This document shows positions 1 through 59,492 of a stretch of 64,000 bases of DNA, piece by piece. The stretch's first letter is position 1. Each line of letters begins with the position of its first letter. The translations under genes were made by a program, and so were the position numbers. Under the pieces are notes generated by a model. It did no database searches, was not told the DNA's origin, and saw nothing but the letters and a program-made list of their open reading frames with translations. Origin of the DNA: Nereocystis luetkeana (lineage: Eukaryota; Sar; Phaeophyceae; Laminariales; Laminariaceae); NCBI GenBank assembly GCA_031213475.1, contig JARUPZ010000025.1:2306077-2370076 (forward strand), in the 5' to 3' direction.

Positions 1-466
1 TTGTCTTACTCTGTTTACGAGTAGTAGTGGTGTTTTTTTTTTTTTTTGCTTTTTTTTCCACCTCGTTCTTTTCAAGCGTTGGCCACCTCGCATGCGGGAG
101 GGCACGACAGATTGATTCCTCTTTGTTTTCTTTCATTTTTAATCCTTTTCTCTTTTTATTTGTCTTCTTTGTTTTGTTTTCTCTTTGATTGTTTCCTTTC
201 GTTTCTCTAGTTCATAGAATATGTATGTCGTTCCTGTCGTATATAGTAAGATGACATGACGTTGCATTGCCCACTGCTGTGTTTACTGAATACCAGGTAC
301 CTGGTAGCTGGTAGGTGGCAACGTACAGCAGTATCTCTGTGGCGTAGCTTTGCGACCACAGAACTTGTATCTCTTCTAAGATTGAAGAATCGGCACGGGC
401 ACTGGTTGTGCTGGATGTCGACGGGTAAAAATACTCGTATAACGGTTCGTTGTGAAGAACACACAC
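1..466 (+). mobile_element. 5'-truncated LINE 3'-UTR copy (window-edge)
   Basis: This segment matches the 3' UTR of the LINE at 24-28.9 kb. In order it shows the 'tctttgtcttactctgtt' pyrimidine tract, 'cacgacagattg', 'gtcgtgcctgtcgtat', 'gtggcgtagctttg', 'ctggatgtcgacgggta' and the terminal 'gaagaacacacacag'. It is cut by the window start. Unlike other copies it carries TACCAGGTACCTGGTA at 291-306 and a 5-bp insertion that creates TACAGCAGTA near 324-333. ORFs on either strand are incidental. Confidence 0.85.
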
Positions 467-474
467 AGATAGAT

Positions 475-2105
475 GTGGTTCTATCTCGGGGATGGCCACG
501 CAAGAATTGTCACGCATCCTCGCTCACTGTTCATTTTAATCTTAATACAGGGGTGGTTTCGGCAGACACGAACTATCCATCTACTCATAGCCGCGGAAAA
601 TGACGCAACCATGCCAGACGTATTACCGGGCTGGATAAGACGGTTGAGCATACAAACGAGACTTACTTAAGATCGATATTAACGAGGAGTTGTTTTGTTT
701 TCTAAGTAATTTTCCCGAACTTCCGGTGTTTTCCTGAATTATTTTCGGGAAAAGTCGAAAACCTTCACCCCCCCCAAAAAATCGCCTCGACGATTTCAGG
801 TATTCCTTGCATTTTTACGGTTTTTAGGTACAAGGATCGGGCAGCTCCGCCGTGCTAGCCATGCTACCCCTCACGAGCAGGTAAGGTCGGCCAGCAGACC
901 GCAGCACGCGCAAAGTATCCATGGGACTCCCTTCTGCAAGTCGACGAAGCCGCACCGACGAAGAATACAGAAGCCACCTGATGACAGTAATCACCGCTAT
1001 ACTCGTAGTGGAACTTTGTTTCACCGAGCGTTGTAGCGTAACGAGTTGGTGATGAATCTTACTCCCCAAGGCGCGGAAACCTGCTTACAAGTCAGACCGA
1101 TACAAGTGTGGGACCACCGCACGGATGGTTTCCGCGAGCGCTGCTGCTGTAGTGACGGTTCTCTACCTGGTGGACGACTTTTCGCGAGCCGACCGAGACA
1201 CGTACTCGGTACGATTCAACCCTGGCTGAATTTGGTGAAACGACGATATTTGATTTCAGAAAAGAGCGATATATAATACGTATCGTTAAGATCGGCCCTT
1301 ACGGCTACTACTGTAGTCGTTGACGAATACTTTTCATCGGAGATGAAACACTGCCAGTCGGACTCTCGGTGCTTATGGAGTTTTCGTGTTTGTTTTCGTG
1401 TTGGTCAGTTGGGTAGGGCGTAAACACTGAGCCGGACCTTGACAAACCAATATATATGCTGTGGTCTACGTCAGCCTTAGCTGGGGACTTAGTCTGTGGG
1501 ATATGTACTCTATAGGTCAATGGGTTCGACGGGGTAGGATGTCGTAGTCGATTCGCTTATGGTCCTTTGGGCTGATGCCGTTGTGTGTATGATATATTGC
1601 TCCACCCTTGCGCGTGCTGAAAAACGTGTTGGTGAGAGGTAGCCTGCATTTTGTAGCGAACGACAGAAGAAGATGTTTGCCCTTATTCTTACGAACATCA
1701 CCTGCAAATACTCCAATATCACCCGGTTTCATCGTCACCGCGCCCTTCCATCCTCTGCCCAGTTCGTTTGTTGGCATCCATCAGTACAAATGGTCACCCT
1801 TTCGTTGGAATATATCTCACCCAGTCCTTCAGGTTCTTCCAGATTGTTTTTTTCGTTCGGCGTCCTTGGTGCAATCGGTTGGAGATTTCGCTCGCAACGA
1901 CAAAAATAAACTGCCTCGCATTTCCCAGCCTGCTCCAAGCGCATAGACGTGAATCGTTCGCCAATTAGCTGTTGGGTTTTCACAGACTTACTGCTACACG
2001 ATTCCTTGACGTCTACAGAGTGTAGAGACCTACTCCGTGCAGCCCTTGCCTGGCATCTGCCATTGCTGACAAGAAAAAACACGCAAATCCTGCTGGCCAT
2101 CTGTG
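475..2105 (-). pseudogene. Degraded LINE copy, endonuclease domain and linker
   Basis: Read on the minus strand, 2105 down to 1320 is colinear with the endonuclease region of the LINE at about 24750-25500. Recognisable pieces are KESCSSKSV, MRLEQAGKCEAV, SFATK..LPLTNTFFSTRKGG, KRIDY and SPAKADVDHSIYI. The segment 660-475 continues with the part equivalent to about 25545-25740 of that LINE. Many frameshifts and stops split it, so no protein is possible. It is far more diverged than the 24-28 kb element and is an old insertion. About 650 bp (667-1318) of unrelated sequence interrupts it. The LINE 3' end at 1-466 is in the opposite orientation and is a separate insertion. Confidence 0.8.
667..1318. 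other. Unclassified insert inside the LINE relic
   Basis: This ~650-bp sequence sits between two colinear parts of the degraded LINE. It shows no similarity to anything else in the window and no convincing coding region. Near its left end is a short inverted repeat ('ttttcccgaa' near 710 against 'ttttcgggaaaa' near 742) followed by a C8 run. I see no clear terminal repeats or target duplication. Confidence 0.4.
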
Positions 2106-2224
2106 CAGTGTGTAGTGTCGATGTGGACGCGTAGAAAGAGAGCCGAGAACACAAACACTGGGAACCTTGTAGTTATTTGGTTTTTCCCATCGAGACGAAT
2201 TTTATATTTTACCTGTTAGTCTGG

Positions 2225-2700
2225 TTGGCGAGAGGTTCGTGGCGGTTGAAACATTCCGGCACAGTCTATTGCGTCGGTAGGAGGCTGGATTCGACGAAGG
2301 AGGAGGGCGACGTAGCGTCGACGAGTGGGGAAGAGACGGATTGTACTCACCGTGCGCGAGAATGTTTGTTATTTTCAGATCAGAACCACAAGTGCGAGGA
2401 GCATTTTGTTTTTCGGGACGGGACGGAAGAGGAACCGACTGGAAGGGAGCGGGAACGAAAGCACGTGCAAAGGAGCGAAAGCACGTGCAAAGGAGCGGGC
2501 GGATTGGGCTAAGGCGATGAGGCGGCCACGAAGAAACGGCAGCTGGGCGGCACACGGCGACCCATGACCCGGCGCGCACACATTCACGAGAGAAGCAGTC
2601 ATCGTTTTTTTCTGGTTTTTGTTTGTTACGAGGGCGTATGTACTTGTCATTAACGTAACTGGCCTCTATAGTGTTGGCGAGGTTTATACCCTTCATGGGG
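2225..2700 (+). repeat. Repeat family E, old truncated copy
   Basis: It matches the 5' half of the E elements at 9853, 12038, 44302 and 50311: 'cggcacagtctattgcg', 'ggtaggaggctggattcgacga', 'ggggaagagacggatt', 'cagatcagaacc', 'gagaagcagtcat' and 'tatacccttcatggg' occur in the same order. It is more diverged than the others and lacks both ends. Minus-strand reading frames here (up to 190 codons) are not conserved in the other copies, so I do not call them genes. Confidence 0.7.
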
Positions 2701-2709
2701 AAAGACTGG

Positions 2710-6329: not shown

Positions 6330-6530
6330 TGTCGGTCAGGGGGTGAAGAAACCCTCGCCAAAATAACGCATGACCCCGAAAGTTTGAGCAAACTGTAGGC
6401 TAGGGGGTTTGATGCCTCCCGTGAGGGAGCCCCCCGGAAGCCCTCGCCAAAGTAACGCATGCCCCCAAAGGTTCGAGCAAGCTGTTTGCTAGGGGGTTTG
6501 ATGCCTCCCGTGAGGGAGCACCCCCCTCTC
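6330..6530. repeat. Two tandem ~88-bp repeats
   Basis: 'cctcgccaaaataacgcatg' near 6353 recurs as 'cctcgccaaagtaacgcatg' near 6441. Each is followed by 'gagcaa(a/g)ctgt', 'ctagggggtttgatgcc' and 'tcccgtgagggag'. A third partial copy precedes them near 6340. On the minus strand the units read as repeated GAPSREASNPLA peptides, which is a by-product of the repeat. Confidence 0.75.
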
Positions 6531-7400
6531 CCCCTTTTCTTCGACGAGACCAAGGCCAGTGTGCAGGTGGTACGTGCTGCCGTATTGATTCCGAATTCCT
6601 CGCCGCTGTGTCGCGTAGCAATGCAGCGTGCGCGCCGGTACTCAACGAACACCGATACTCGACGATCGAGTCGATACATATTTAGCGGGTCACTCCTGCG
6701 CCTGAACCGATACCTGGTATTGTTTTGCAATCATAAGCTGGACGTCTCAGATGAAAGGTTTGTTTAGTGTGCTACCCTCAGCGCCATAGCCGCGACTTCC
6801 AAATCCGCACTCTCTATATCGTAGGGTGCAAAAATGTGTGGTATGGGGGTTAGTATACCTGGGCTAAATAAACCGCGCTGAAATACACATGTGAGGTATT
6901 TTTCACAGTAAATGCCGTCCCAAACCGGCGTTGTACCCCGATTACTGTTGCTTCCTCCAGACATAAAACATACCAGGAATGATGCACCTGAATGCTGGTC
7001 CTCGACGCTATGCCAGTTACGCAATCGTTTGATGGTGCTGCAAGTGACCATATTGTCTGCCGACGAGCGAATAACTGCTGGCGTCGCTAGCCGATGATGG
7101 ACGCATGATTAAATCAGACAATGTGAGTTGGCCACAAGGAAGGCATAATCACTACTACTTATTCATCAATATATCAATCCGACCTCATCACCACACGGCT
7201 CCTGCAGCGCACAAAGTTAGCGTCAAGCACCTAACAACGTACCCACGTATCTGGTAAAATATTTGCCAACATATGAGACATGCACCCGCACCGATAAGCG
7301 TCGAGTATACCTGCCCACCTGCCAAATTCTTTGGTTTTATGAGTATGCAGTCGATTGACAGGGAACCAACATCCATCTAACTCATTGACAGGCGTGGCAC
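6531..7400. other. Unclassified region
   Basis: I recognise no element or gene in this stretch. The open frames are short and overlap on both strands. Confidence 0.35.
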
Positions 7401-8350
7401 GATCACACGGGATCACCGAGCAACGGGATCAGGGATTGAAGCTGGCCATGGAAAAGAATAGGCGCACTCACTGCTTGAACGCCTACAACTTGATCACAGA
7501 CAATCGTGGAGTCGATTCGACCCCGGCAAAACATGGCTGCGGCTACTAGCAAACATCTCCAGGTTGATCATAAGCAACTCTCGCCTAGATTGCAAAGGGT
7601 CGACGTGTCATGGTCACCCGGGAACATGGCTTTCATGTGACCGCGGGCGAACATAGGTGTGATAGCTAGCGACCGCCTCCAGCTTGATCACAAGCAAGCA
7701 CGAAGTCGATAGCAAATCGCAGGCGTGCAATAATCACACAGGATCAGGGAGTGAAAAAAACTAACCACGGAAAAGCATAGTGGCGTTCACTACTTGATCG
7801 CCTAAAGCTTGATCACAAGCAAGCGTGGAGTCAATTCGACCCCGACAAAACATGGCTGCGGCTACTATTAATAGCAAACACTTCTAGGTTGATCACAAGC
7901 AACTCTGGCCTAGATTTCCAAAGAACCGACGTGCCATGGTCATCCGGGAACATGACGTTCATGTGACCACGGATGAACGTAGGTGTGATCGCTAGCGACC
8001 GCCCCCAGCTTGATCACAAGCAAGCATGGAGTCGATAGCAAATCGCGGGCGTGCGAGAATCACACGGGATCAGGGAGTGAACAAAGCTAACCACGGAAAA
8101 GCATAGTTGCGCTCACTACTTGAACGCCTAAAGCTTGATCACAGGCAAGCGTGGAGTCGATTCGACGCCGACAAAACATGTCGTTTATTTGCCTACGTAC
8201 GGGTAAACATGGGTGTCATCATTAGCAATCGTCTCCAGCTTCATCGTAAGCAAGTACAAAATTGATCGCGAATCGCAAGCATCCCATGGTAACATGAAAA
8301 TATGGCATTAGCCTACCACGGGCAAACGGACGTGATCAGTAGCCAACGCC
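7400..8350. repeat. ~320-bp tandem repeat, nearly three units
   Basis: 'gacaaaacatggctgcggctacta' occurs near 7525 and 7845 and in decayed form near 8168, a spacing of about 320 bp. Between them recur 'gttgatcacaagcaactc', 'catgtgaccacgg', 'gcgaccgcc(t/c)ccagcttgatcac' and 'cacacgggatcagggagtg'. The word 'cttgatcacaagcaa' also repeats within each unit, suggesting an older ~80-bp unit. Unit 2 has a 6-bp insertion turning 'ctactagc' into 'ctactattaatagc'. Confidence 0.8.
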
Positions 8351-9850
8351 ACTCAGACTAAACCTGGTCCTCGAGAGAGTGTCTTCAACGTGATCGGAGG
8401 TGACTTCAGCGTTGATCTGATACCTCGAGCATCACTTCCTTGAATATACCAACATGATGTACGATTACTAATATACAACGCGAGCGTATTGCACACCTAA
8501 CTGGCGACCAATGTATACGCCGATCAAGCATCATATTTTTGAGTCTTGTATCGGCACCAGGCATACCAGGTACCGACCCCGAAGGCGAACAGCTAATCCC
8601 AGCCCAATCCTACGTACACCGGATATATATTCCTGTGTCCTAGGGGGAGAGAGACGACCTGGAAATGGAGCGGCTGCCCTCAGCCCAATCCCATGTGTTG
8701 CAAGTATCATCGTTTCCTAGAAGGCTTGCATAGTCACCTTGGTTTCAGTTCATGGCCTTGTCTATGTCGTCGCGTTGTTTCCTTGTTCGTTGTCTTTGGG
8801 ATTATTTCGCGGGGTTTGATCTCATCTTCTACTCCATTGCCGTGGTTTCGAATGGAGTTAATTCATACCGGGTACACATCTATCGTGGCCCGCGACCTCA
8901 TCTCTTGTATATATTCGCACAGACTGTAGTAATAGCAACAGGCAGATAGAGTCCGTGTACTACAGTAGGGGTGTCGATAGGCATGCACGGAGGCGCGACG
9001 CTCATAGTGCCACACATAGTATGCACTGTGCCTGCTTACAGGTATATATGTGGTATATACCTACCAGGTACAGCAGTAGTATCTCTTAAGTACAATATAC
9101 AACTCAACCCCCGTTGATATATCTATATATATAAATAGCGGCTGTTCGATGGTCATGGATGTTGGACGCCCATCAGAACTGGTACGATGATGTCTAACGG
9201 GTAAGAGTATGTGTATATACATCAAAGGAATGTCTCTCCTATTTTGCTCTCCTTCTCTTCTTATTCATTGTGCGTTTTGTTGCTCCTAACCTTGTTTTTA
9301 ATCCCGCCCTTCTTGATCCTCCTCCCTTTTGTAACGATCTTATTTCCGATCTGGGGCCTAAAAACTATTTTTAGCCCTCGCTACTACAGTTGGTGCGTTG
9401 CCTTTCAATCGCCACCCGATCCCTAACCCTTGTTTTTTGTTTCCTCGACAAATTGTGCCTAACCACGATACACCTTTAGTAGTAGGCGCTTAGTTACTGC
9501 AGTTGGTGTTTTGTTTGGATGATCGAAACATATCATAAAGAAAGATTCAAACTGACGCTTTCGGGTTCTTCCTTCACCCGTGGAATTCAACCTTTATAGC
9601 TTTAGAGGTAGCCACGATATACCTTATTGATATTTCAATATTTTATTTTATTTTTGCCTTCCGAAAATAAATGTGCAGGGCGTTGTTCATTTCAAATAAA
9701 TGAGAAAGCTGACATAATTCGTCGAATACCACCAAATTCCTCCAACCAATTATCCTTCCCTGCGTATACTCCATTGATTACGTACTACCACCATTTACCA
9801 AGATATTTCACCAACCAGCCACCAGGTACTATATATGCATTTTTCTGCAT
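8351..9850. other. Unclassified AT-rich region
   Basis: I see no coding or repeat structure I can name. TACCAGGTA occurs at 8564 and 9062, the second adjoining 'cagcagtagtatctct'. The region 9200-9850 is pyrimidine-rich. Open frames at 9211-9426 and 9627-9947 are low-complexity. Confidence 0.35.
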
Positions 9851-11090: not shown

Positions 11091-12037
11091 TTAGAAGTAT
11101 ACTGGTGGCATACGGCCAGTATTATAATGGAATCATGGCAGTCATACGGCCAGTATAATTGTATCCTGGCAGTATTGAGAGCTTGCAGTATAATACGTGA
11201 CGTGCGCAGTAGACCCCGATTCTACTGCTGCTGTAGACGGCCTTTCCTCCGTAGTCTATCACAGTTCCCGTACCAGAGTACATAGACCCCCCCACCACAA
11301 TACCTGGTAGATGTTTCGCGTATATATGCTATGTCATGGTTGAGCTCAGGCAGCATACGAGCTACCAGGTACTCAATAGTGCTACTTATACCTACCTGCT
11401 ACGGCGGGCTCTCTTAACCCCTTTAGTGCCGCAGTCCCAATTTGGGGACAAACCAGTCTGATTCCGAGTGATTGGTCCCCAAAACGGGACTAGGGTCCTA
11501 AAAGAGTTAATACCTGGTAGCGACGAATATGTCCTATGTCGCGTATTTTTTTGAATCGGAGTATTTATTACAATATAGCGACGAGCGCACGGGTACAGCA
11601 GTGTACGTCGCGTACCCCTGCCAAAATACGAATTCATGCTGTATATTTTTTTAGCAGCGGACTACCGGTAGTACGATATATATAGCGACGAGCGTACGTA
11701 CTGGTATCACCTTGCTTGAGCACACTTGGATACCATATACATCCATCGAGTATGTTACGGGCAGTACATTCTGACAGCGGGCTGCATGGTATTTAATAGC
11801 GGTAAACATTATACATTGAGTGCATGGTTCCCACGTCGAGTACCATAACACTCCCATGCAGCGGGTTTCAGGATCAGGACAGACATCATACGTCGCATAC
11901 CCCGGGCATGACACAAATACGATACAGCAACAAGCGTAAGGGCTCATTACGTCGAAAGTATGACACCCTAAATCTACTCGTACCCACCTGCTGACGATGG
12001 ATAGCGACGGACATACTTGGATACCATACTCGTATAT
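11091..12037. other. Unclassified region rich in TACCWGGTA words
   Basis: No gene is supported. TACC(A/T)GGTA occurs at 11301, 11363 and 11511. The region also holds an 89-bp TTAA-flanked MITE (annotated separately) and recurrent 'atagcgacg' phrases near 11574, 11683 and 12001. Confidence 0.4.
11414..11510. mobile_element. piggyBac-like mini-MITE, 89 bp with TTAA on both sides
   Basis: TTAA at 11414-11417 and 11507-11510 bracket an 89-bp near-palindrome. The left arm CCCCTTTAGTGCCGCAGTCC pairs with the right arm ending GGGACTAGGGTCCTAAAAGAG, and 'tttgggga' pairs with 'tccccaaaa' in the centre. TTAA target sites and CCCTTT-type termini are typical of the piggyBac superfamily. It has no coding capacity. 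Confidence 0.75.
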
Positions 12038-14306: not shown

Positions 14307-16175
14307 TCAGTCCTGCAACCGTTCCATCTCGCGACGGGTCAGTTCTTCCCAGTTGTTATCGGTGTAGCGCACTCGCCAGTAGCGGTCTCTGTAATCGTAC
14401 ACTTGCCCCTGCAGTCGCAACCCACCGCCAAAGTCTTTCCAGATGGTAAACCCTATCGGAACCAGCGTCAAGGCTTCGCGGCGACGAAGGGCGGGCGTAC
14501 GAGGGGTGACTGAGACTGGGGTCGTGTCTTTAGTCGGGTCGGGGTTGTACAAGTGCCAGAGTGCGATGAAACCGTCCAACTGCAAGGGTGTAAAACTCTG
14601 TAACACGTCATTCTCAGTTCGCCATCCTGTCTCTACTCCCTCTCTCGATCTCCCCTTGTACTCCCATCTAGTGGTGCGGGAGGCAGTGGTCGATCTGCGG
14701 CAGCTCACGAGCGAGTCTAACACTGACGAATTGACTCCTTCAACTGGCAGTTTGAAATCCGCGCCCCACGCATACTGTGCAAACTCGTCTGATATCGAGT
14801 GTCTTAGTGTCTTAGGTCTGAGGTGGTACGGCTTCACATCTGCGGTGAATACATTTCGGGTACGTTGTTTTCTGCCTCGCATCGTTACTTGTACGCTTAG
14901 GCCTGTCTGTAATACTTCCGTGACCTTCCAAGGGCCTGTGTAGTGGTCGTGCTGCAGCTTCTTCCCTCTGCTGTCGCGGTGTTTGCTGCTATCGGACTCG
15001 CGCACCAGCACGAGGCTACCCTTCTCAGCGATAACTCCGGCTGATGGTCTCGAGATGGCAGCGTTGGCTCGGGCCCGCGCCCTTACTCTTTGGCTGTCGC
15101 GCTTCTCGAGCGCCAGGCGGACTTCTCGGAGGTTCTGTCTGCTGCGCTCCACGAAGTTGTCCAGGCCGCCGCTCTGATCTGTCTCTTCTGACAAGGGTAC
15201 CAAAGAGTCTAAAGACGTGCGAGGCTTGCGACCGAACAACAACTCGAAAGGTGTCATGTTAGAAGGCAGTGACACGTCTGGTACGGTGCGTTTGATCCAT
15301 ATTGCCGGTGATACGTACTCGTCCCACCTCTCGGGCCACGATCTACATATCTCTGCCAACAGCTCCTGCAACCAACCTCCTAGTCTCTCTACAGAACCCT
15401 GTCCTCGCGGGTGGTCGGCTGGGCCAAACTTTATGTCCGCATTCATCCAACGGCATAAGTGTGTCACTACTTCTGCTCTGAACTCTCTGCCGCCGTCGCA
15501 ACGTACTGTCTTGGGTACACCGAACGTTAGGCACAGCTCGGTAAGCGCTTGTGCTACGCCTATTGCTTGCTTAGTTTCTAGAGGGATACCGAAACTTGGA
15601 GGCTCGATCTACTACCAGCAGAACGTACTTGTTACCTGAAAGGGAAGGCGTGTCTTTTTTCGGGATATCCATCTGTAGTTCATCCCACGGTTCTAGTGCG
15701 CGTCCGGGAAACATTGCGACGCGTCTGCTGTTGGGTCGTTTACGTCTCCTGCACCCGCATGACAACACGTATTGTCGCGTGTCGCGAATGACTGAAGGCC
15801 AGTGAAAGTGCTGAAGACTAGCGCTAACGTGGCTCCTACTCCAGAGTGACCATGCAGAGTGTGTACCAACGCGAGTACATCGGCAACCATGGATTCGGGT
15901 ATGGCTGGCAGGTTCCTACCTTTTCCGTCGGCAAACCTGATTACATCGTTATCGTCTAGACTATGCCCAGTCTCATCTACTTCCGCAGCGTTCGCATTGC
16001 TATCCTCCCGCAGACGCTTGCTAACCTGACCCAGATGAGCGTCGTTCCGTTGCCTTCTCGCGAGGGATGCCGGATTGGTGAGTACCTCGACTGCCCGGTG
16101 GATGCCCGGCGTCCTCCTACCCGACGACAGCGGAACCTGCCCCCCTGCTGAAAGCACCTCTTTCAACAGCTCCAT
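14307..16175 (-). pseudogene. Ty3/gypsy integrase and C-terminal extension, broken (element A)
   Basis: The minus strand encodes an integrase in pieces. 16175-15800 holds an N-terminal region with the start of an H2C2 zinc domain (HTLHGHSGVGATLALV). After a frame change, 15768-15590 gives FPGRALEPWDELQMDI and YVLLVVDRASKF with the first catalytic Asp. A 5-bp deletion relative to copy B near 15590 breaks the frame. The rest is open from 15467 to 14307 (386 codons): DHPRGQGSVERLGGWL with the catalytic Glu, then PFELLFGRKPRTS, a basic linker, KLQHDHYTGPWKVTEVL, and a C-terminal YDYRDRYWRVRYTDNNWEEL module reminiscent of the small chromo/Tudor-like folds at the ends of some integrases. The family normally inserts element cDNA into the genome. 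Here it cannot be intact. Confidence 0.8.
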
Positions 16176-19680: not shown

Positions 19681-20845
19681 GGCCGGTACCGTGAACCTAC
19701 TGAAGAGAGAGATAGAGAGGTCGACGTGCAATAACACAGTGTATACTCGTACGTACGTAATTTTGCCTACTGTAGTCCACTAAAAATGATCTGACTCACA
19801 GTGATAACATTATTACCAAGACACATAAAAATGAAAAACGTGGCTTGCAAGGTTTGCAGGGATGCTTATCGACCTCTAACTTGCCAGAACAATAACTAAG
19901 AAAGGGGGATGGAAAAGGACGTGCCTTAAATTTGTGTGTTGCGTTAGCCGTGACGCATTTTTATTTCACAGATAACAGCAGCAACGAAGCGTGGCGAAGC
20001 GGCGACGGCAGCGGCAACATACACGCAGGTGGTAAGGGCAGCACACAAGCATGTGACGGCAAGCGACGGCAGTAACGACGTACGTGACAGCAGCTGGCTT
20101 GTGGAACACGGGCCTGAGAGTCTCAGCGAGCGCACTTGGACACTCGCGCTCTCAAACCCCGCATCATCGTCAGGCTTACGCTTATTTTTCATTCATTTTT
20201 TATTTTGGCTGCTGTGTGGAAGAGGTGATGGGGGTCTGACAAGTGCGCTGCCAGCTTAAAGACTCCCACCTGCGCCATTTGTTCAATACACGTCGAGCCA
20301 AGCACGCAAACTCAGGGTACCAGAGTGAGAATCAACGATGTGGACACGCGCCAGGGAGCAAGTCGCTTCCTGGTTGTGTCATGCATCATGAATTTACCAG
20401 GTACTCAGGCATTCCCCACCGAAATAAAATAATTAATTGAGTACAGACCCCCTAAATAATGAGCACCCGTTCAGAGTCATGGGTGTTATCGTACGCGCGG
20501 GACGCGCAGTACTGCTGCTGCTGTATCCGTGATACAGCCTACCCCGTAGTAGGTACCAGTAGGGTTGAGTTTCCACGTGGTCCATGGTTGCATGTGGTCA
20601 GCGGTGGGTCAGAGTTGCTTGCAGGAAGAGCGCTATCAGCGCGTGTGCCCCCCGTAGAGGCAAAGGAAAGGCGAGGTGCAACACACAAAAAAAAAAAACA
20701 ATAAAACGCTGCCACCCGCAGCTACCAAAAAAGTTACTCAAGATAAAAAATAAAATCGAAAGGAACAGGTCGGAGGCGCGAAGGCCGCCGCTCGTTCCGG
20801 CACGGGAAAATTTAAATGCAAACCCATGCAGTAAGCGCGCAGCAT

Positions 20846-21437: not shown

Positions 21438-22920
21438 CGAACACGCCGGCCTCAGAAGACACCGACTATTTAATACCAGGAGCACGCATCATCAAGCAAG
21501 AGCCGGACTTACATGCGATAGGAGCAGGCAGGATAGCAGGCATGGGTGAGAGGCGGCAGTGGAAATGGCAAGTGGAATTGGCATTGCTTGTTCGTGGAGT
21601 TACTCCCTCTCCTCTCCTTTCCTCCATGTCCCGTGCCTCCGTTGCTCTCTTGGGCGTGCGTAACTTACTACTTGTAAGCGTATCTGTACTTTTCCTGTAT
21701 GATGTACCCCACCGCAGTGTGCACGTGCACTATTAATACTATTACCACTGCTGTATACATACTAACTGGTATAATACACGTAGTGGTACGCAAACCAAAG
21801 GCACTGCTGCTGCTGTGCTGCTGTATCCGTGATCTCTGTGCTGAACGTAGTGTGCTGTTGTCTCATTTTTCGGTCTCCTTTATGTATGATTTTTTCGTAC
21901 TCGTCGGGGGCGGAATTTGCCTGCATCTATAGGAGAAAAGGAACGAGTCACCCACCCTCGCCTGGGTTTGCGAGACCCGTGTGACGTAGGGTGAGTGCTC
22001 GTGCGCTAGAAAGAGGCGGTGCGTCGCGGCAGCTTGCAGGATCAACCCACGAAACAGAACTGCCGTTGGACGCCCGAGAGGCATGTGTGGGGCTACTGCA
22101 CTCGCGCGTACCAAAATGTGAGTCCAGGCTCCGCTGGTCGAGGTCTACCGCACAACCCTCGGCAAGGTGACGGGCTCGGCTCTCGCCCACCCACACTACG
22201 CCTTTCACGGCGTACATACTCGGGGCCCACGTGGTGTACCCTCAACCAACGTGGTGTGCTGCCCCACGAACCGATCGTGAGGTGCACTGATCATCAGCTA
22301 CCGAAGGTCCCCTTTGGACGACGGGCTCAGCAAATGACCGCTCGGCTGCACGTACCGTCGCCTTCTTTGCTCGAGGCTACCTGGTAGGTTTCACTAATGC
22401 TGTTTGTTCCTGTGTTAAATCAATAACTATAACCGTTTTAGACTAGGATTCAACGGGACTAGGCGACCTCGCCCTCCCTGTGTTTAGAGTTTTAGAGAGG
22501 GCTCGTCGCCAAAACATGAACGGAAGTGTGTTGCGATATACAGGGGCCGGCCTCCAAACACCGGACCCCGGCAGAAGCGTGCGAGGTGTGCGTGGGACTA
22601 CTCCACTCGTGCCTACTGAATCACCTAGGGCTCGGGCTCAGCCGATCGACACCTACCGCTCAACCCCTCCTGGGGGCGGGCTCGGTCCCCGATCGCTCGT
22701 GGTACATCTCACACAGCACAGTCAGCCTACAGGCGTAGGGTTGGTCGTCGCCACCACGACGACCACCCTCTGTGGCCACTGTGCTATCGACCCTTTCGTA
22801 AAAACTCGGGAACCTCCCTCCCCTCTCGGCACACGGGTGGGTTGCAACCCCACGGGTGTTACGGAGGAGGTGGTGGTAGAGATCCCGCTGGACACGTTCT
22901 GTCGGTGACGTGAAAATATC
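21438..22920. other. Unclassified region with a diverged internal duplication
   Basis: The stretch near 22083-22280 ('gtggggctactgcactcgcg', 'gctcggctctcgcccac', 'tcggggcccacgtggtg') loosely matches 22580-22720 ('gtgggactactccactcgtg', 'ggctcgggctcagccgatc'). Reading frames are open on both strands because the sequence is GC-rich. I cannot support a gene. TACCTGGTA is at 22378. Confidence 0.4.
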
Positions 22921-24492: not shown

Positions 24493-25423
24493 AGAAAAAA
24501 AAGAAACAAAAAAAGAAAAAAAAGAAGGCGGGGACGAGCCTCACGTCGGCTGGCAAAGAAAGCAGCACGCGAGGCTCGTAAGAGACAGAAGGAGGCACTT
24601 GTGACGGTAGCGACCTACAATGTGCGCACCCTGGCTGTAAAGGGGAAGAACGGGTACGGACATGACGAGCGGGTACTGGCGAAGGGAACGCAACTCGGCT
24701 GTGACTTCATTGGCCTGCAAGAAACTCGGAGGTCCGGCAGCACGACGTTCCGTGCGGCAGGGTATCGTGTTTTCTGTTCAGGACAGGAAACAACAGCCAC
24801 CAGGCAAGGGCTGTACGGAGTAGGCCTAGCTGTCAAGGAATCGTTGTGCAGTAAGTCTGTGTATACTCATCAGTTCGTTGACGAGCGGCTAATGTCTATG
24901 CGCTTTGAGCTGGCTGGCAAATGCGAGGCAGTCAATTTCGTCGTTGCGTATGCTCCAACTGATTGCACCAAGGACGCCGAACTGAAACGTATTTTCTGGC
25001 AGAAGCTGGAGTACTTGGTGGAAAAAATCCCGACGAAAGAGTGTCTGTTTGTACTGATGGATGCCAACGCGCGAACTGGACAGAGGAAGGAAGGGTGCGG
25101 TGATGATGAAAGCAGAGTGCTGGGAGCGTATGGACGTGATGTTCGTAACGATAATGGCAGACGGCTCCTGTCGTTCGCCACCAATTGCAAGTTGGCTCTC
25201 ACCAACACGTTTTTCAGCACGCGCAAGGGTGGGATATCGCATACTTACAACGGCACCGGCCCGAATGACCGTAAGCGGATTGACTACATCCTAACCCGTC
25301 AAGTCCATCGACCTAGAGTACAAGATGCGAAAGTCGTCCCACAGCCTCCTGCCCCAGCTAAGGCTGACTCAGACCACAACATCTTGTATATCAAAGTCCG
25401 ACTCGGTGGTCATTTTGCGCCCA
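24493..25423 (+). pseudogene. LINE endonuclease domain (EEP/APE family)
   Basis: The frame is open from just after a TAG at 24490-24492. No ATG is evident near the domain, so the natural start is unknown. A Lys/Arg-rich leader (RRLAKKAAREARKRQ) precedes the endonuclease. Family motifs in order are ATYNVRTL (catalytic Asn), GLQETR (Glu), NFVVAYAPT, LMDANARTG (Asp/Asn), LTNTFFSTRKGG, KRIDYIL and ADSDHNIL (Asp-His). These are the residues that nick target DNA to prime reverse transcription. Near 25420 an extra base shifts the frame. The relic at 475-2105 shows that the protein should continue in the next frame. Confidence 0.88.
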
Positions 25424-27368
25424 ACAGACAAATACGTAGATCGACGAAACGCCGAAGAGTTCGACAGGCAGCTTTTTATGTCCGATGGAAATTGTCGTGA
25501 ACGAGTAGTCTCCAGGATCATCTCCACTCTCAACCAGCCTATCCAGCCCCGTAATACGTCTGGTATGGTTGAGATTTTCACTACGGCTGTTATTGATGCG
25601 GTCGAAAAAGAGGTACCACCCCCTGCACGTCGCCACCGCAGACATGGATGGTGTGAGTCTGCCGAAACCTTGGCCGCATTCATGCCAGCATGGACAGCGA
25701 GGGAGGATGCACGACAATTCTTGCGTGCCCACCCCCGGGACAGAACCGCGTGGAAGACCCTGAGATCTGCGTGTGCGAACCTGCAGAAGGTGATTGCCGC
25801 AGGACTGCATGCGTACTTCGAAGCGTACCTTGCCGAAACCAAACGACTCCTAGCGAACAACGACCAAAGAGGCTTTTACAAGCACCTTAAGAGTACGGTA
25901 GGATTGGAAGGGACTAAAGCGAGGAGCGAACAGTTCATTAGGGACGAGGATGGCACGATCCTACGGGATAAGGTGCGAATTCGTGAACGATGGGCGGGGT
26001 TTTACCACAAACTCTTGAACACGAAGTCGCTGAAACTCGATCCCACGATCATCGACCTCTTGCCACCGCGACCGCCTAAACTGTAGCTTGAAGATGAACC
26101 ATCCATAGACGAGATGACCGAAGCACTTAAGGGGATGTCGAATTGAAAAGCTGTCGGGCCAGATGGTCTCCCGGTCGAACTCCTAAAAATCGACCACCCG
26201 GCATTCGCCCAGCGCTTTCACAACATCCTTGTCAATGTTTGGTTAACAGGAGAAGTCCCTCAGCAATGGAAAGATGCGATCATCAAGGTCCTTCACAAAA
26301 AGAAGGATCGAACTGACTGCAACAACTATAGAGGGATTTCGCTTGTTGCCCACGCAGGCAAAGTGTTGTTGAAAATCGTCGCGTCCCGCCTCAGCAACTA
26401 CTGCGAGACCGAGGAACTACTCCCCGAGGAACAGTGCGGCTTCCGCCCCGCACGATCAACGATTGATATGTTGTTCGTCGTGCGCCGGCTGCAAGAGCTC
26501 GGACGACAGAGGAAAATCCCCTTATACGTGTGCTTCATCGATCTGCAGAAAGCGTACGACTCTGTCGACCGAGAGCTGTTATGGAAGGTACTCACACGCT
26601 TTGGCGTACCAACCAAAATGCTGAGAATTATCCGTAATTTCCACGATGGCATGCGGCCTCGCGTGCGTACTGATGACGGCGAGCTCTCGGAATGGTTTGA
26701 TGTCACGCAGAGGCTGCGGCAAGGCTGTGTACTATCACCGTTACTGTTCAACGTGTTCTTCGCTGCTGCGTTACACGTCGTACTAGTACGCTTCAGCCAA
26801 GACGAAGCCATTGTAAGGGATTTGGTCCAACTCTGGGAAGCTGGAGTAGTTCGAACAGGGAAGGAGGAGCCATTGGCGTGCGTGCGAAGGTCTGTATGGG
26901 GCATGTTTTACGCCGACGATGCAGGAATTGTCTCGAAGTCGGCTGAAGGGCTCGCAAAAATGATGACAGTCATCGTGACTGTCTTCGAAGCAGCAGGCCT
27001 CACGGTGTCGGAAAAGAAGACTGAGACAATGGTCCTACAAACACCAGACCGGACAACCCTCGCACCACCGCTCGTCATCGAAGCGGCAGGTCAGAGGTAT
27101 AAGCAGACGACCCACTTCTTATACCTAGGCGGCGTTATCCACGAAAACGCTGACCTCTCGCTCGAAATCGACCGACGGATCCGCCTCATGCGAGCATGCC
27201 TCAAACGGTTCGGCCCGGAGTTGTATGATAGGACGACCGCCCCCCTTAGCCTTAAAGTCCGAATGCTGAAGGCCGAGGTGATTGAGACCCTGCTGTACGG
27301 GTGTGTGACGTGGACCCTCAGAGCGGAACACTTTGCCAAGCTTCGAACGGCTCACCACCAAGTAAGTC
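25424..27368 (+). pseudogene. LINE linker and reverse transcriptase domain
   Basis: In frame 2 the protein continues PTDKYVDRRNAEEFDRQLF through a linker with RAHPRDRTAWKTLRSA to a TAG at 26084-26086 and a TGA at 26144-26146 ([17 protein letters not shown]). RT motifs follow: [52 protein letters not shown] (first catalytic Asp), [26 protein letters not shown] (catalytic Asp pair) and [10 protein letters not shown]. The enzyme would copy element RNA at the nicked target. The two stops look like single-base changes. The catalytic residues are intact, so decay is recent. Confidence 0.9.
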
Positions 27369-27992
27369 CTGTTGCGAGTCATTGGCTTCCAGCGCCGACT
27401 TCATACTGACCATGCCACCCTCTCGTACGCGAAGACCCTCAAGATGACACGTTGCGAGAGCATCGAAACGACCATTCGTAAACGGCGGCTCTTCTTTGCG
27501 GGGGGCGTGGCACGGCAAAGCAAGGAGCGATTACCCAATCGGGCAATGCTCGGGACGATAGCTGGTGGGGAGAACCCGAGACCAGGCGGACAGTGTAAGA
27601 CTTGGCATAGATGCATAGTCGAAGACCTTAGGGAGTTCCGAGCCACCGAAGGGTCAACGGAAGTTGCCCCCTTGGTGTTTGGAGTTGAGACCGCGTTGTG
27701 GTCCACTGCAGCCAAAAAGGTGGGGAAGTGGTACCGGGGGATCCTTGAAGCAGCTGAACGGTTCATGGTGAGGTGGCACAAGGCTGAGGCTGAGATGAGT
27801 AGACAGCGCCGCGCATCCGCCGTGGATGGTGCCCAAAGGAACGGGGGGGGAGGGGGCAACAGGAGAAGTGGCATAAAGCCCGACCGAGGGAATGCGGAGA
27901 GGGGGGGGAACAGGAGGGGTAGAAGGGAAACGGCGGTAGACGAAAGTAGGAAGGAGATGGCAGACAGGGTAGCAAGGCACCAAGTCGACTAG
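27369..27992 (+). pseudogene. LINE C-terminal region after frameshift
   Basis: After [13 protein letters not shown] the frame shifts at 'caagtaagtcctg', where four extra bases fit a small AGTA duplication, and continues [20 protein letters not shown]. Next are an RRLFFAGGVARQ segment, PRPGGQCKTWHRCIVEDL and a basic Gly-rich tail (GGGGGNRRSG) that ends at 27990-27992. Homologous 3' fragments at 47565-48074 and 53571-54080 start within this region at GGCGGCTC and keep the frame open. In related LINEs this part is a nucleic-acid-binding tail. Confidence 0.8.
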
Positions 27993-29790: not shown

Positions 29791-30760
29791 AACATGACCC
29801 CCGCAATTTTCAGGGGCGTCGTATCCTAGCTGTCCGGGGTTCGATTGCTCCTTTTTTATTGCACATCCGCGAGTCGTCACTCCGACAACACCCCACACAT
29901 CAGGCGTGTTTCTCTTCGTGTTGACGACAACCGTGTGTTTCGTACGGTGCAGGCAGCACTCCAGACAGCAGCCGCTGTAATCAGCAGACACGAGTTGGTT
30001 AGTCGTGGGAACGGGGGGACCTCTATGTTGTATAGTCCAGAGGATTATACGCGCGGGCATGCTATTAAAAGTTCCGTTTGCACGTTGATTTCATCTTGTG
30101 TGCGCCTTCTTCGTATTTTGTGTTCTTTTGTTTTAGGCCGCGGAATTTCGACTATTATTCATGTTTTTCGGATCTTCCAGGGCTCCTGAACCTTTGTGTG
30201 ACCACGGACGCCTTCGTCAGCGAGTTAGGTTCATTCTTATCAGAAAGCGTATTTTCCAATTGGAGATATGTATCAATATACGGAGGCGTTCTGTCACTAT
30301 TCGTGAAATTCTCCAGCCCCAAAAATATCAAGAAGTTCGAATAAAAAAAGCGTCCTTTTCAAAATTTCCAAAGTTCGGAAATAATTGGAGATATATATCG
30401 ATATACGGAGGCGTTCTGTCACTACTCGTGAAATTCTCCAGAAGCAAAAATATCAAGTTCGTTAACTTTCCAATATTTGAAAAAAAAAAACAGAAAAATA
30501 TGGAAGATTGAAAGGTTGCGCGAAAAAATTGTCGACAATTTGGAAAAAAAGCTCTCCGATACTATTTTTCCCAAACATTCGAATGTTACCGAAATCGATA
30601 TTTTTGAGTTTGGAGAATTTCACGAATAGCGACAAAACGCCATTGTATATCGATACACATCTTCATTATTATTCCCAAACTTTTGGATTTGTAAAAAACG
30701 CTCTCCGATAAGAATGAGCCTAAGAATGACCCTTCATGCGAGAATAACAACAACAACAAT
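29788..30760 (+). mobile_element. Older E copy (3' part), interrupted by a TA-flanked MITE
   Basis: From 'ttcgattgctcctttttt' onward it parallels E2/E3 ('catccgcgagtc', 'cgtttcgtacggtgcaggcagcac', 'cagacacgagttggttag', 'ctttgtgtgaccacggacg', 'cttcgtcagcgagtta') and ends after the MITE with 'gcgagaataacaacaacaac'. In the units at 42.7-54.7 kb this same old E contains a younger E (44302-45557, 50311-51565). Confidence 0.75.
30228..30720. mobile_element. 493-bp MITE with long inverted repeats, TA target
   Basis: The left end GG(T)TCATTCTTATCAGAAAGCGT and the right end, read inverted, GG(C)TCATTCTTATCGGAGAGCGT, match over ~100-125 bp apart from one indel. Both arms include 'ctattcgtgaaattctcc' next to 'aaaaatatc'. 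TA flanks both sides (30226-30227, 30721-30722) within the E motif 'gagtta|tgtgag', as for Tc1/mariner-type elements. The left half also holds an internal direct repeat: 'ttggagatat(g/a)tatc(a/g)atatacgg' at 30260 and 30382. It has no transposase. Copies are at 45887-46379 and 51893-52385. Confidence 0.8.
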
Positions 30761-30849
30761 AATAAATAATAATATCACCGTATTCATGATTGCACGTAGC
30801 GCAGGGAGAATCTTCAGTTGAACCCGTCAAGACAACTATAATATAGCCG

Positions 30850-31010
30850 GCGTCCCTGGTGGCTTGGTAGGTGGCCCGTGTGCCCACTACTGCTTTAAAA
30901 TTTATTGCGTTGGTTCCAGTACACCGAGTGCAAACTCGCACGAGGGACTTTTTCTTGCGTAAACATTGATCAGCGGAGAGAATGAGAGCATGACGCAGTG
31001 GCATTCGATT
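30850..31010 (+). mobile_element. SINE2: tRNA-derived SINE with decayed B box
   Basis: A tRNA-like head GCGTCCCTGGTGGCTTGGTAGG carries a good pol III A box (TGGCTTGGTAGG) and a degraded B box (GGTTCCAGTAC instead of GGTTCGANNCC). It is followed by 'caccgagtgcaaactcg', 'ctttttcttgcg' and 'ttgatcagcggagagaatgagagc'. The minus-strand copy at 59985-60139 shows the same order with an intact B box, which establishes this as a family. Duplicates are at 46516 and 52522. Confidence 0.7.
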
Positions 31011-37229: not shown

Positions 37230-38700
37230 GCGGCAAAACGTGCAGAAGACGAAAGAACATACCGTTAACAGACACACCGCAGTACAGCAGTACAGGAAAT
37301 TAGCATAGGATCAGCGAGAAAACCACGCATAACCGTACTAAGCAGTGGCGCGAAATCAAGGCACAGCAGTAGTCAGTCGGGCGGTAGCAAAATCGCAGTA
37401 CAGCAGCAAAATCGCAGTACAGCAGCGCACACGGTTTTGTTAAGACATTAAAATGAATAGCAAAAGTGAACAAAAATAAATAATGATTAGAGTAAAAAAA
37501 AATAACAACAGCGGCAAAACGTGCAGAAGACGAAAGAACATACCGTTAACAGACACACCGCAGTACCAGGTACAGCAGTACGGGAAATGAGCATAGGATC
37601 AGCGAGAAAACCACGCATAACCGTACTAAGGCAGTGGCGCGAAATCACGGCACAGCAGTAGTCAGTCGGGCGGTAGCAAAATCGCAGTACAGCAGCAAAA
37701 TCGCAGTACAGCAGCGCACACGGTGTTGTTAAGACATTAAAATGAATAGCAAAAGTGAACCAAAATAATAATGATCAGAGTAAAAAAAAATAACAACAGC
37801 GGCAAAACGTGCAGAAGACGAAAGAACATAACGTTAACAGACACGCCGCAGTACAGCAGTACAGGAAATTAGCATAGGATCAGCGAGAAAACCACGCATG
37901 ACCGTACTAGGGCAGTGGCGCGAAATCACGGCACAGCAGTAGTCAGTCGGGCGGTAGCAAAATCGCAGTACAGCAGCAAAATCGCAGTACAGCAGCAAAA
38001 TCGCAGTACAGCAGCGCACACGGTTTTGTTAAGACAATTACAATGAATAGCAAAAGTGAACAAAAATAATAATGATCAGAGTAAAAAAAAATAACAACAG
38101 CGGCAAAACGTGCAGAAGACGAAAGAACATAACGTTAACAGACACGCCGCAGTACAGCAGTACAGGAAATTAGCATAGGATCAGCGAGAAAACCACGCAT
38201 GACCGTACTAGGGCAGTGGCGCGAAATCACGGCACAGCAGTAGTCAGTCGGGCGGTAGCAAAATCGCAGTACAGCAGCAAAATCGCAGTACAGCAGCAAA
38301 ATCGCAGTACAGCAGCGCACACGGTTTTGTTAAGACAATTACAATGAATAGCAAAAGTGAACAAAAATAATAATGATCAGAGTAAAAAAAAATAACAACA
38401 GCGGCAAAACGTGCAGAAGACGAAAGAACATAACGTTAACAGACACGCCGCAGTACAGCAGTACAGGAAATTAGCATAGGATCAGCGAGAAAACCACGCA
38501 TGACCGTACTAGGGCAGTGGCGCGAAATCACGGCACAGCAGTAGTCAGTCGGGCGGTAGCAAAATCGCAGTACAGCAGCAAAATCGCAGTACAGCAGCGC
38601 ACACGGTTTTGTTAAGACAATTACAATGAATAGCAAAAGTGAACAAAAATTAATAATGATCAGAGTAAAAAAAAATAACAACGGCGGCAAACGAAAAAGC
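37230..38700. repeat. Expanded ~284/301-bp tandem array in element B
   Basis: 'cggcaaaacgtgcagaagacg' starts near 37232, 37516, 37800, 38101 and 38402. The last two full units are almost identical and 301 bp long. Unit length varies with the number of 'aaatcgcagtacagcagc' steps (two or three). The unit beginning near 37516 carries a 7-bp CCAGGTA insertion at 37566-37572. Element A has only about one and a half units. Confidence 0.88.
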
Positions 38701-39970
38701 AAAATCGCAGTACCGCCGCAAAATCGCAGTACAGCCGCAAAATCGCAGTACAGCCGCGGTTGTGGTGGCCAAAACGCAGTACAGCAGTAACATCGCCGTA
38801 CAACAGCGGTAGGCCGGTACCGTGAACCTACTGAAGAGAGAGATAGAGAGGTCGACATGCAATACCACAGTGTATACTCGTACGTACGTAATTTTGCCTA
38901 CTGCTGTAGTCTACCAGGGTATTAAAAATGATCTGACTCACAGTGATAACATTATTACCAAGACACATAAAAATGAAAAACGTGGCTTGCAAGGTTTGCA
39001 GGGATGCTTATCGACCTCTAACTTGCCAGAACAATAACTAAGAAAGGGGGATGGAAAAGGACGTGCGTTAAATTAGTATGTTGCGTTAGCCGTGAGGCAT
39101 TTTTCTTTCACAGATAACAGCAGCAACGAAACGTGGCGAGGCGGCGACGGCAGCGGCAACATACACGCACGTGGTAAGGGCAGCACACAAGCACGTGACG
39201 GCAAGCGACGGCAGTAACGACGTACGTGACAGCAGCTGGCTTGTGGAACACGAGCCTGAGAGTCTCAGCGAGCGCACTTGGACACTCGCGCTCTCAAACC
39301 CCGCATCATCGTCAGGCTTACGCTTATTTTTCATTCATTCTTTATTTTGGCTGCTGTGTGGAAAAGGTGATGGGGGTCTGACAAGTGCGCTGCCGGCTCC
39401 CACCTGCGCCATTTGTTCAATACACGTCGAGCCAAGCACGCAAACTCAGGGTACCAGAGTGAGAATCAACGATGTGGACACGCGCCAGGGAGCAAGTCGC
39501 TTCCTGGTTGTGTCATGCATCATGAATTATACCAGGTACTCAGGCATTCCCCACCGAAATAAAATAATTAATTGAGTACAGACCCCCTAAATAATGAGCA
39601 CCCGTTCAGAGTCATGGGTGTTATCGTACGCGCGGGACGCGCAGTACTGCTGCTGCTGTATCCGTGATACAGCCTACCCCGTAGTGGGTACCAGTGGGGT
39701 TGAGTTTCCACGTGGTCCATGGTTGCATGTGGTCAGCGGTGGGTCAGAGTTGCTTGCAGGAAGAGCGCTATCAGCGCGTGTACCCCCCGTAGAGGCAAAG
39801 GAAAGGCGAGGTGCAACACAAAAAAAAAAACAATAAAACGCTGCCACCCGCAGCTACCAAAAAAGTTACTCAAGATAAAAAATAAAATCGAAAGGAACAG
39901 GTCGGAGGCGCGAAGGCCGCCGCTCGTTCCGGCACGGGGAATGCAAACCCGTGCAGTAAGCGCGCAGCAT

Positions 39971-46379: not shown

Positions 46380-46515
46380 TAAGAATGACCCTTCATGCGA
46401 GAATAACAACAACAACAATAATAAATACCTGGTAATAATATCACCGTATTCATGATTGCACGTAGCGCAGGGAGAATCTTCAGTTGAACCCGTCAAGACA
46501 ACTATAATATAGCCG

Positions 46516-52385: not shown

Positions 52386-52521
52386 TAAGAATGACCCTTC
52401 ATGCGAGAATAACAACAACAACAATAATAAATACCTGGTAATAATATCACCGTATTCATGATTGCACGTAGCGCAGGGAGAATCTTCAGTTGAACCCGTC
52501 AAGACAACTATAATATAGCCG

Positions 52522-56723: not shown

Positions 56724-56870
56724 TACTGCACATGGCAACGTAGTATCTCTGTGGCGTAGCTTTGTGACCACATAACTTGTATCTCTTCTAGGATTGAAGA
56801 ATCGGCACGGACACTGGTGGCGCTGGATGTCGACGGGTAGAAAGAACGGTTTAATGTGAAGAACACACAC
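56724..56870 (+). mobile_element. Very short LINE 3'-end copy
   Basis: It begins 'actgcacatggcaacgtag' and ends 'gaagaacacacacat'. The UTR word 'ggttgtgctggatg' reads 'ggtggcgctggatg' here. Confidence 0.75.
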
Positions 56871-57468
56871 ATACGGGGATGTCATAGTATTACGTATTCC
56901 ATTTCCCATATCACTCCAGGGAATGTCTGACTGTGATTTACCACATACCTGGTGCACCATGTATAAACATATACCTGGTAGCTGGCACCAGTGGTTTTTG
57001 CTTTCAAGACTGTCTGTACGTAAAATATTGGTATTTATATATACCTGGTATGTAACTCTCAGGGATAGGAGATTCACCACAGACACTGGTTGTGCTGCTG
57101 TATGTCGACGTATAGGAAGAACGATTTAATGTGATGGAACAAGCACATATCTGTACAGCAGATATATGCTAAGCTGTAGTATACTGCTAGACTGCTGTTG
57201 TTTATACTGGTGGTTTGTATGTACTTTTCCTCACGTTTTGAAATGTCGGCGATATTGTGTTGTTCAAGGCACTCTACCCCGCCTACTACCTATTCATAAA
57301 TGGGTGAGGGCGTGACCACGAATATTATGAGTACGCTCTTCCAATATTATAGTAGAACGACCAATGAACGACCAATGTCGAAGACACGCACAGCTTGACG
57401 CAACCTTTTCAACCCCCAACATCCCGTCCCGAGAGACCGTCGTCACCGTGTCACGCCCACGTTACTTC
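56871..57468. other. Unclassified region with TACCTGGTA words and a decayed LINE tail
   Basis: TACCTGGTA occurs at 56972 and 57042 and 'tacctggtg' at 56946. A decayed LINE 3' end ('agacactggttgtgctgctg', 'tatgtcgacgtatagg', 'aacgatttaatgtg') lies at 57080-57137. The region 57240-57468 is unclassified and could hold 5' sequence of the gene that follows. Confidence 0.45.
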
Positions 57469-58314: not shown

Positions 58315-58507
58315 GGCGGCCGCAACTTCGGACGAAGTCGAAATATCGTGCGAATCAAACGTGTTCGGCACCGACGCAGACCCCATTTTAATGCTGGAGT
58401 TCGTCAAAGCAGTCCTTGCGCATGCCGCGTCTCCGTTAAGCCTCCCCGTGGCCGAGCCGGCCAACCCCCAAACGCCGCTTAACGCGGGAAGCCCCAACAC
58501 CAAGGCG
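58315..58507 (+). CDS. Candidate host gene, exon 2
   Basis: After the acceptor the frame reads AAATSDEVEISCESNVFG, then TDADPILMLEFVKAVLAHAA, SPLSLPVAEPANPQTPLN and AGSPNTKA. It ends at a codon boundary before GTGAGAATC, a second good donor. The acidic segment followed by a hydrophobic helix-like LEFVKAVLAHAA looks like folded protein rather than random translation. The region after 58540 consists of LINE and SINE insertions, which would lie in intron 2. No 3' exon is certain. Function unknown. Confidence 0.5.
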
Positions 58508-58604
58508 GTGAGAATCATAGGGGTAAAGTGTGTGTATTGTAAGTTGTCATTTATTTTCGTTTCACTATTTCATAGATTGCGTGTGTCGTGCCTGTCGTAT
58601 CTAG

Positions 58605-58953
58605 TTTTTTTTTTTTTTTTGCTCATCCCCTTTATTATCTTCGCCCATCTTCTTCTCTCTCTCCTTCCAACTCGTAACTCAGATCCGGGGTCATATAGCA
58701 GGCTCTTCTACCCCTTCCCCCTACGGTACGTGCCTTCATTTATTTTTATCGCGAGAAGATTTTAGCCTTTTCTTCCCTCGTCGACTCGCATCGAATTGTG
58801 CCTACCCACGCTGCAAGGCGCTCTCAACAATTGAATCCTTTTTTATTTTTATTTTTGCAAATAAAGTCAAAGTCCGACCCCCCTGGGGCTCGAACCCAGG
58901 ACTCAAACAAGTAGAATTCGAGGTTAACCACTTACTTGAACCACCGGGGCGAC
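58605..58953 (-). mobile_element. SINE1, tRNA-derived, copy 1
   Basis: On the minus strand it begins GTCGCCCCGGTGGTTCAAG with a pol III A box (GGTGGTTCAAGTAAGTGG, expanded by 'taag') and an intact B box (GGTTCGAGCCC) near 58883. Then come 'gggtcggactttgac', a ~250-bp body ending 'gggatgag'-like sequence, and a run of A (T on the plus strand, 58605-58620). 349 bp. It lies inside a LINE UTR copy whose uninterrupted form is known, so the ends are exact. The target duplication is at most 2 bp. Confidence 0.85.
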
Positions 58954-59020
58954 AGTATGATGATATGGCTTTGCATTGCCCACTGCAGTGCATACTGCAC
59001 ACGTGGCAACGTAGTATCTC

Positions 59021-59363
59021 TTTTTTATTGTTGTTTTTTTTTCTCATCCCATTTATTATCTTCGCACATCTTCTTCTCTCTCTCCTTCCAACTCGTAACT
59101 CAGATCCGGGGTCACATAGCAGGCTCTTCTCCCCCCTTCCCGATACGGTACGTGCCTTCATTTTTATCGCGAGAAGATTTCAGTATTTTCTTCCCTCATC
59201 GATTCGCATCGAATTGTGCCTACCCACGCCGCATGGCGCTCTCAACAATTGGATCCTTTTTTATTTTTGCAAATAAAGTCAAAGTCCGACCCACCTGGGG
59301 CTCGAACCCAGGAGGACTCAAACAAGTAGAATTCGAGGTTGACCACTTGAACCACCGGGCGAC
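59021..59363 (-). mobile_element. SINE1, tRNA-derived, copy 2
   Basis: Same element as copy 1. The head starts GTCGCCCGGTGGTTCAAG, with A box TGGTTCAAGTGG, B box GGTTCGAGCCC near 59300, the same body and an A-rich tail (59021-59040). 343 bp. It is inserted 68 bp further along the same LINE copy, in the same orientation. Confidence 0.85.
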
Positions 59364-59492
59364 CGTGGCGTAGCTTTTTGACCACATAACTTGTACCAGG
59401 TATCTTTTTTAGGATTGGAGAATCGACACGGACACTGGTTGTGCTGGATGTCGACGGGTAGAAAGAACGGTTTAATGTGAAGAACACACACA

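Follow-up and report, generated by a model that had tools for sequence, protein, structure and literature searches.

The window analyzed here is a 64,000-nucleotide stretch of the Nereocystis luetkeana genome (C25:2306077-2370076 of the 465,085,209-base assembly) in which the 9-bp word TACCWGGTA (W is A or T) recurs at TA dinucleotides. An earlier note, made from the letters alone, had listed 16 positions for this word and taken it for a 7-bp insertion; all 16 positions are exact, and a 17th site was added at 6711. The word has two forms, TACCAGGTA and TACCTGGTA, and we refer to its copies as scars, a term that anticipates the origin proposed below. The scars, to which no strand is assigned, and the paralogues that lack them are as follows.

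291..299: scar TACCAGGTA, unit 1 of a tandem triple; 21-bp gap against siblings
298..306: scar TACCTGGTA, unit 2 of the triple; 21-bp gap against siblings
305-313: variant TAGCTGGTA, unit 3 of the triple
6711..6719: scar TACCTGGTA, exact word; no paralogue in the window
8564..8572: scar TACCAGGTA, exact word
9062..9070: scar TACCAGGTA, exact word
11301..11309: scar TACCTGGTA, exact word
11363..11371: scar TACCAGGTA, exact word
11511..11519: scar TACCTGGTA, bordering an imperfect palindrome at 11414-11510
20395..20403: scar TACCAGGTA, shared with the paralogue at 39530 (both copies carry the word, 96.6% identity)
22378..22386: scar TACCTGGTA, exact word
37564..37572: scar TACCAGGTA, within a single unit of a 301-bp tandem array; 5 siblings lack exactly 7 bp
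39530..39538: scar TACCAGGTA, paralogue of 20395
46426..46434: scar TACCTGGTA, repeat unit 1; empty sibling at 30567-30969
52432..52440: scar TACCTGGTA, repeat unit 2, duplicate of 46426
56972..56980: scar TACCTGGTA, exact word
57042..57050: scar TACCTGGTA, exact word
59394..59402: scar TACCAGGTA, in a dispersed repeat that the earlier note associated with a LINE; about 10 siblings lack exactly 7 bp
30567..30969, + strand: paralogue in which the TA site of 46426/52432 is empty, 98.3% identity over 410 bp
61949..62104, + strand: paralogue in which the site of the 291/298 triple is empty, 21-bp gap

The 17 copies in the window compare with a mean of 0.24 and a maximum of 2 in 100 dinucleotide shuffles, on which ground chance was rejected, and with an order-3 Markov expectation of 0.44; 15 of the 17 sites are non-redundant by flank. 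The genome-wide count that the earlier note had called for gave no frequency near expectation: 182,395 copies were counted in the whole 465 Mb assembly and 1,744 for the reversed control word, a ratio of about 105 and a density of about one copy per 2.5 kb. The sequence that was read amounts to 338,006 bases (the window, 250 kb of contigs C1 and C2, and six transposase loci) and contains 108 scars, which are dense in every sampled stretch (59, 17 and 27 in stretches of 200, 64 and 50 kb). The word is real and genome-wide. Searches of Rfam and for tRNAs gave no matches, and the nested word was found in 9 stretches of viral_contigs, by a rough estimate not above random.

Comparison of paralogues demonstrates that, at sites with an empty paralogue, the word is gained at TA. 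The three before-and-after cases put forward in the earlier note (37564, 46426/52432 and 59394) are correct, in that the siblings lack exactly CCWGG plus one TA. At 291/298 the triple reads CCAGGTA-CCTGGTA-GCTGGTA, and the 21-bp gap against six siblings corresponds to its three units; together with a 14-bp gap at C1:38770/38777, the gaps are multiples of 7 where scars stand in tandem. A paralogue spans the site for 39 of the 108 scars and is exactly 7 bp shorter in 16 of these 39. As a control, 1,000 of the 1,054 other TA-N5-TA words were taken, of which 406 have paralogues and 15 a paralogue that is 7 bp shorter (Fisher p 6e-11), the 15 being program counts. Two of the 16 exact-gain alignments (C1:87404 and position 6350 of the C2 sample) are not clean by eye, and the 16 include repeated copies of one site, leaving 10 distinct clean loci. 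The converse history, an ancestral word lost by varied deletions, was tested and not found. Among 197 short indels between repeats (264 kb), 28 have the form of a TA[X]TA gain, and CCAGG/CCTGG is the top class with 7 entries from 6 distinct events, other classes having 1 or 2. Only CCWGG is firmly a gain among the TA[X]TA words tested: a short sequence and one TA are added at a TA. The word has at least in part been gained recently, since the scars at 46426 and 52432 face an empty copy that is 98-99% identical; the scar at 20395 and 39530, being present in both copies, predates that duplication.

The gained sequence has one sharp length. TACC-N(k)-GGTA words were counted in 314 kb, giving 18 for k=0, 110 for k=1, 19 for k=2 and 9 for k=3. 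At k=1 the central base is T in 53, A in 50, G in 5 and C in 2, so that 103 of the 110 have W with A and T about equal; apart from this centre the scar is symmetric. One-base variants, although rare, exceed expectation (TACCGGTA, 18 against 3.5; TACCAGGGTA/TACCCTGGTA, 8 against 0.8) and fit what end-joining could leave.

The flanks display an insertion-target preference that is symmetric around TA. W occupies the seventh base on either side of the restored TA in 84% against 53% (p 5e-12; 57 sites, neighbouring scars removed), and no other distance up to 25 bp comes near; the base is W on both sides in 56 of 76 sites, on one side in 18 and on neither in 2. Decayed neighbouring scars were rejected as the cause, since 101 of the 123 arms that lack TA at 6-7 still have W at 7. 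In 69 sites T is enriched at the sixth base (49% against 25%) and, more weakly, at the first (43% against 29%). A passage of one published account describes most DDE/D recombinases as having a limited, usually palindromic target preference (PMC5481204), and the symmetric preference at the seventh base points to a transposase.

Based on these results we propose that TACCWGGTA is probably the repaired excision site of a TA-target cut-and-paste DNA transposon (IS630/Tc1/mariner/pogo-like). The element would insert at TA, duplicating it; its ends would start with CCAGG or CCTGG, and its transposase would cut 5 nt inside each end. After departure, each flank would retain CCAGG (or CCTGG) as a 3′ overhang past its TA, and the two overhangs could anneal as C-G, C-G, mismatch, G-C, G-C, whereupon repair of the central A.A or T.T mismatch either way would give TACCAGGTA or TACCTGGTA. 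The predicted geometry is the logic of the Sleeping Beauty TAC(A/T)GTA with a longer, 5-nt overhang, and the parent element would have to be rare compared with its scars. As the 338 kb read yielded no intact element with CCWGG ends, we infer excision as the source, and likewise the length and polarity of the overhang and the class of the transposase. The earlier note had rightly described a gain at a TA target with an excision footprint as its nearest analogue, whereas its proposal that the ends contribute CC and GG fits less well than a contribution of all five bases of CCWGG from each end, with one A.A/T.T mismatch.

The A/T centre of the Sleeping Beauty footprint is known to arise from one central mismatch. 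According to a published description, Tc1/mariner excision produces 2-3 nt 3′ overhangs, repair leaves the overhang plus TA, and the Sleeping Beauty footprint is C(A/T)GTA (PMC3878927). By the same description, Sleeping Beauty and Frog Prince resemble the case proposed here in the TA target and its duplication, the palindromic scar and the A/T centre, but differ in having overhangs of 2-3 nt where 5 nt are implied here (PMC3878927); they differ also in that here there are 182,395 copies and the parent is unseen. We keep TACCWGGTA apart from Tc1/mariner proper: its TAs enclose 5 nt, the putative overhang, where that group has an overhang of 2 or 3 nt, and no parent transposase was tied to the word. 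By analogy, it would work as excision footprints of the Tc1/mariner type do, with the overhang lengthened. Pogo-like elements (DDE_1, for example Passer) likewise duplicate TA, and DDE_1 transposases are present in this genome; unlike the scars, Passer footprints are 0-4 bp (PMC9976928). Mariner-Tc1 elements of Ectocarpus, probably of the same algal group as this genome, comprise 17 families and almost 12,000 copies, most of them non-autonomous, in a report that, unlike the present analysis, counts elements and has neither 'footprint' nor 'excision' in its main text (PMC12477816). In literature searches, such mass scars appeared in no listed title or abstract start, and none of the titles listed for papers containing TACCAGGTA (20 of 119) or TACCTGGTA (20 of 109) concerned excision scars. 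The novel aspect is the 5-nt scar together with the abundance of scars. Mass excision at TA, as proposed here, would be shared with the internal eliminated sequences of Paramecium, whose developmental excision leaves one TA and no scar; in this last respect they are unlike the present case.

Several results weigh against an excision origin. A scan of 264 kb for paired ends (TA-CCWGG...CCWGG-TA) gave none in which over 12 of the 20 sub-terminal bases match; no convincing intact element turned up among the 120 half-site pairs of the 338 kb; and the 105 half-sites observed (57 expected) have no shared terminal family or sub-terminal sequence except within repeats. DDE_3 (PF13358) had no match in the genome in a search whose control rang in 3 of 14, and Transposase_1 (PF01359) had none in a search whose control was silent. 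A pogo-like element that does lie in the genome, described below, was rejected as the parent, its ends being CAG (CAGTACCGGCC) and not CCWGG. Among the 39 testable sites, 9 have only paralogues that carry the word, and 14 fall into neither class, including 4 at the 14- and 21-bp tandem gaps. TACCGGTA may represent a separate scar family rather than a one-base variant. Finally, tandems are about 12.6 times as frequent as random TA choice averaged over build-up would give, and same-letter pairs outnumber mixed ones 40 to 19 (p 0.009), an excess by which some tandems may be slippage duplicates.

These tandems are head-to-tail pairs sharing a TA, of which the genome holds 15,917 against 2 for the control, or 8.7% of scars; one TA has thus been used repeatedly. 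The 59 + strand pairs among those listed comprise 23 AA, 17 TT, 14 AT and 5 TA, and the 19 mixed pairs are no plain duplicates. Re-insertion nearby, the target preference and a degree of slippage may each have a part in this. As to age, words with at most one mismatch number 367,383 against 66,255 for the control, and one-mismatch copies stand about 120,000 above control, or 0.67 of intact copies with controls subtracted. A constant-activity model gives about 404,000 events spread over roughly 0.22 substitutions per site; a single-burst model would imply 7.7% divergence.

The search for the parent yielded two half-site pairs of the 120 whose joined flanks match across the joint. One was rejected as a self-match in which two half-sites enclose a short AT-rich stretch. 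The other was dismissed since its right flank already starts with CCTGG, as does the half-site of the sibling. Where half-sites have followable paralogues, most continue through in the paralogue and a few alignments stop nearby. Zero elements in about 330 kb sets an upper bound of about 4,200 elements for the genome, and scars would therefore outnumber elements at least 40-fold. The DDE_1 (pogo-type) transposase domain has 28 matches in the genome, with no link made to CCWGG ends; seven of these, at six loci (L043-L048), were read. Only one of the six has clear TA-flanked ends:

L046:137-2324: pogo-like TA-flanked element, ~2.2 kb, inverted ends CAGTACCGGCC, 23 of 24 matching

Its transposase match holds one stop, and a sibling body lies in L047 (94%). 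TA-flanked pogo-type elements do live in this genome. L043 and L044, which have DDE_1 matches and long open frames, gave no convincing TA-flanked inverted ends. L045 (C34:4443900-4449700) carries a pair of DDE_1 copies in inverted orientation (99.5% identity over 1.9 kb) and inverted repeats of about 300 bp, the outer ends of which fall outside the stretch read. Separately, C1:184185-184973 is a 785-bp insertion in a repeat, with inverted ends TCGAGGGCAAAATA (14 of 14 matching) and a target overlap of about 8 bp.

Other origins must be weighed against the proposed excision. Mariner-type elements have 3-nt overhangs, and CCA/CCT overhangs of this length, joined by a one-base overlap and fill-in with no 5-nt cut, would yield the same TACCWGGTA; the blunt fill-in product TACCATGGTA does occur 4 times against 0.35 expected. 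On this route, however, one would expect many simple 3-nt and blunt products, and 4 copies of TACCATGGTA beside 103 of TACCWGGTA make it unlikely. A self-standing mobile micro-insertion, for which an enzyme would add CCWGG and a TA copy at TA with no longer element, would suit the 182,395 copies with no parent in the 338 kb read, as well as the sharp length and target preference. We nevertheless consider it quite unlikely: we know of no enzyme that does this, the one-base variants resemble end-joining of cut ends, and the W centre follows directly from annealing two identical near-palindromic overhangs.

A functional palindromic site under selection, whether a protein-binding or a methylation motif, is suggested by the palindromic 9-mer and by CCWGG, a known methylase site in bacteria. 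Copies in repeats with empty siblings, the exact 7-bp gains and the roughly 120,000 excess one-mismatch copies, as decay would give, leave it very improbable. Hitchhiking with a repeat family would account for some copies that are duplicates (46426/52432 and the copies of one C1 repeat), but was rejected with 63 of 76 sites non-redundant by flank; an assembly artefact is opposed by sampled contigs of more than 20 Mb and the density of the word in every stretch sampled, and we give this pair of explanations almost no credence.

Further TA[X]TA words may record additional scar families. TACAGCAGTA occurs 42,001 times genome-wide on both strands against 955 for its control; TACAGCAGTA/TACTGCTGTA is possibly a 6-nt scar family. 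These forms stand in the window at 324-333, 9069-9078, 37571-37580 and elsewhere, and the mixed forms TACAGCTGTA and TACTGCAGTA occur 0 and 1 times beside 23 and 20 in a 264-kb sample. TATTAATA, TACGAGTA and TACCGGTA are also in excess in that sample, and TATTAATA and TACWGTA have in common the sharp target preference TAC-TA-GTA. Three clean paralogue sets display exact 6-bp gains of TATTAATA at TA (window 7866-7873, C1:90040 and C1:116033). In the exact-gain test TTAA gave 4 of 18 (3 clean), CGAG 2 of 28 and CCGG 1 of 6 (control TA-N4-TA, 26 of 428), CAGCAG 1 of 30, not clean (control 27 of 439), and CWG 2 of 36 (control 22 of 459). TTAA as a gained word is suggestive; given the weak gain test, we treat all of these as leads to further scar families and not as claims.

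The window also contains an interstitial telomere-type GGGTTA array (62279-62329, 8.7 copies), a frame at 14307-15608 (- strand) with integrase-domain relatives that is Gypsy-like by inspection, and at 24493-27992 (+ strand) a LINE with frames for an endonuclease and a reverse transcriptase. Among 56 matches of the integrase-type retroelement frame the only named ones are proteins of Pylaiella (70%, over half of the frame) and Choristocarpus (49%), which by themselves point to a brown alga or a near relative as the probable host; against viral_contigs the Gypsy-like protein had no match and the LINE protein had 2 pattern matches and no relative.

In its most novel form, which we put forward only tentatively and think rather doubtful, the proposal is that a TA-specific excision with a 5-nt stagger removes nearly every insertion, with about 400,000 scar events (decayed ones included, at a constant rate) and at least 40 scars to each intact element, as a scarring counterpart of ciliate DNA elimination. 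If this is true, one genome would preserve the traces of hundreds of thousands of transposon departures as fossils that can be counted, from which target preference, repair outcome and the age of departures could be read and excision rates over evolutionary time directly measured. A transposase with an unusually long stagger would be revealed, and cut-and-paste elements would be able to churn a genome while being almost absent from it.

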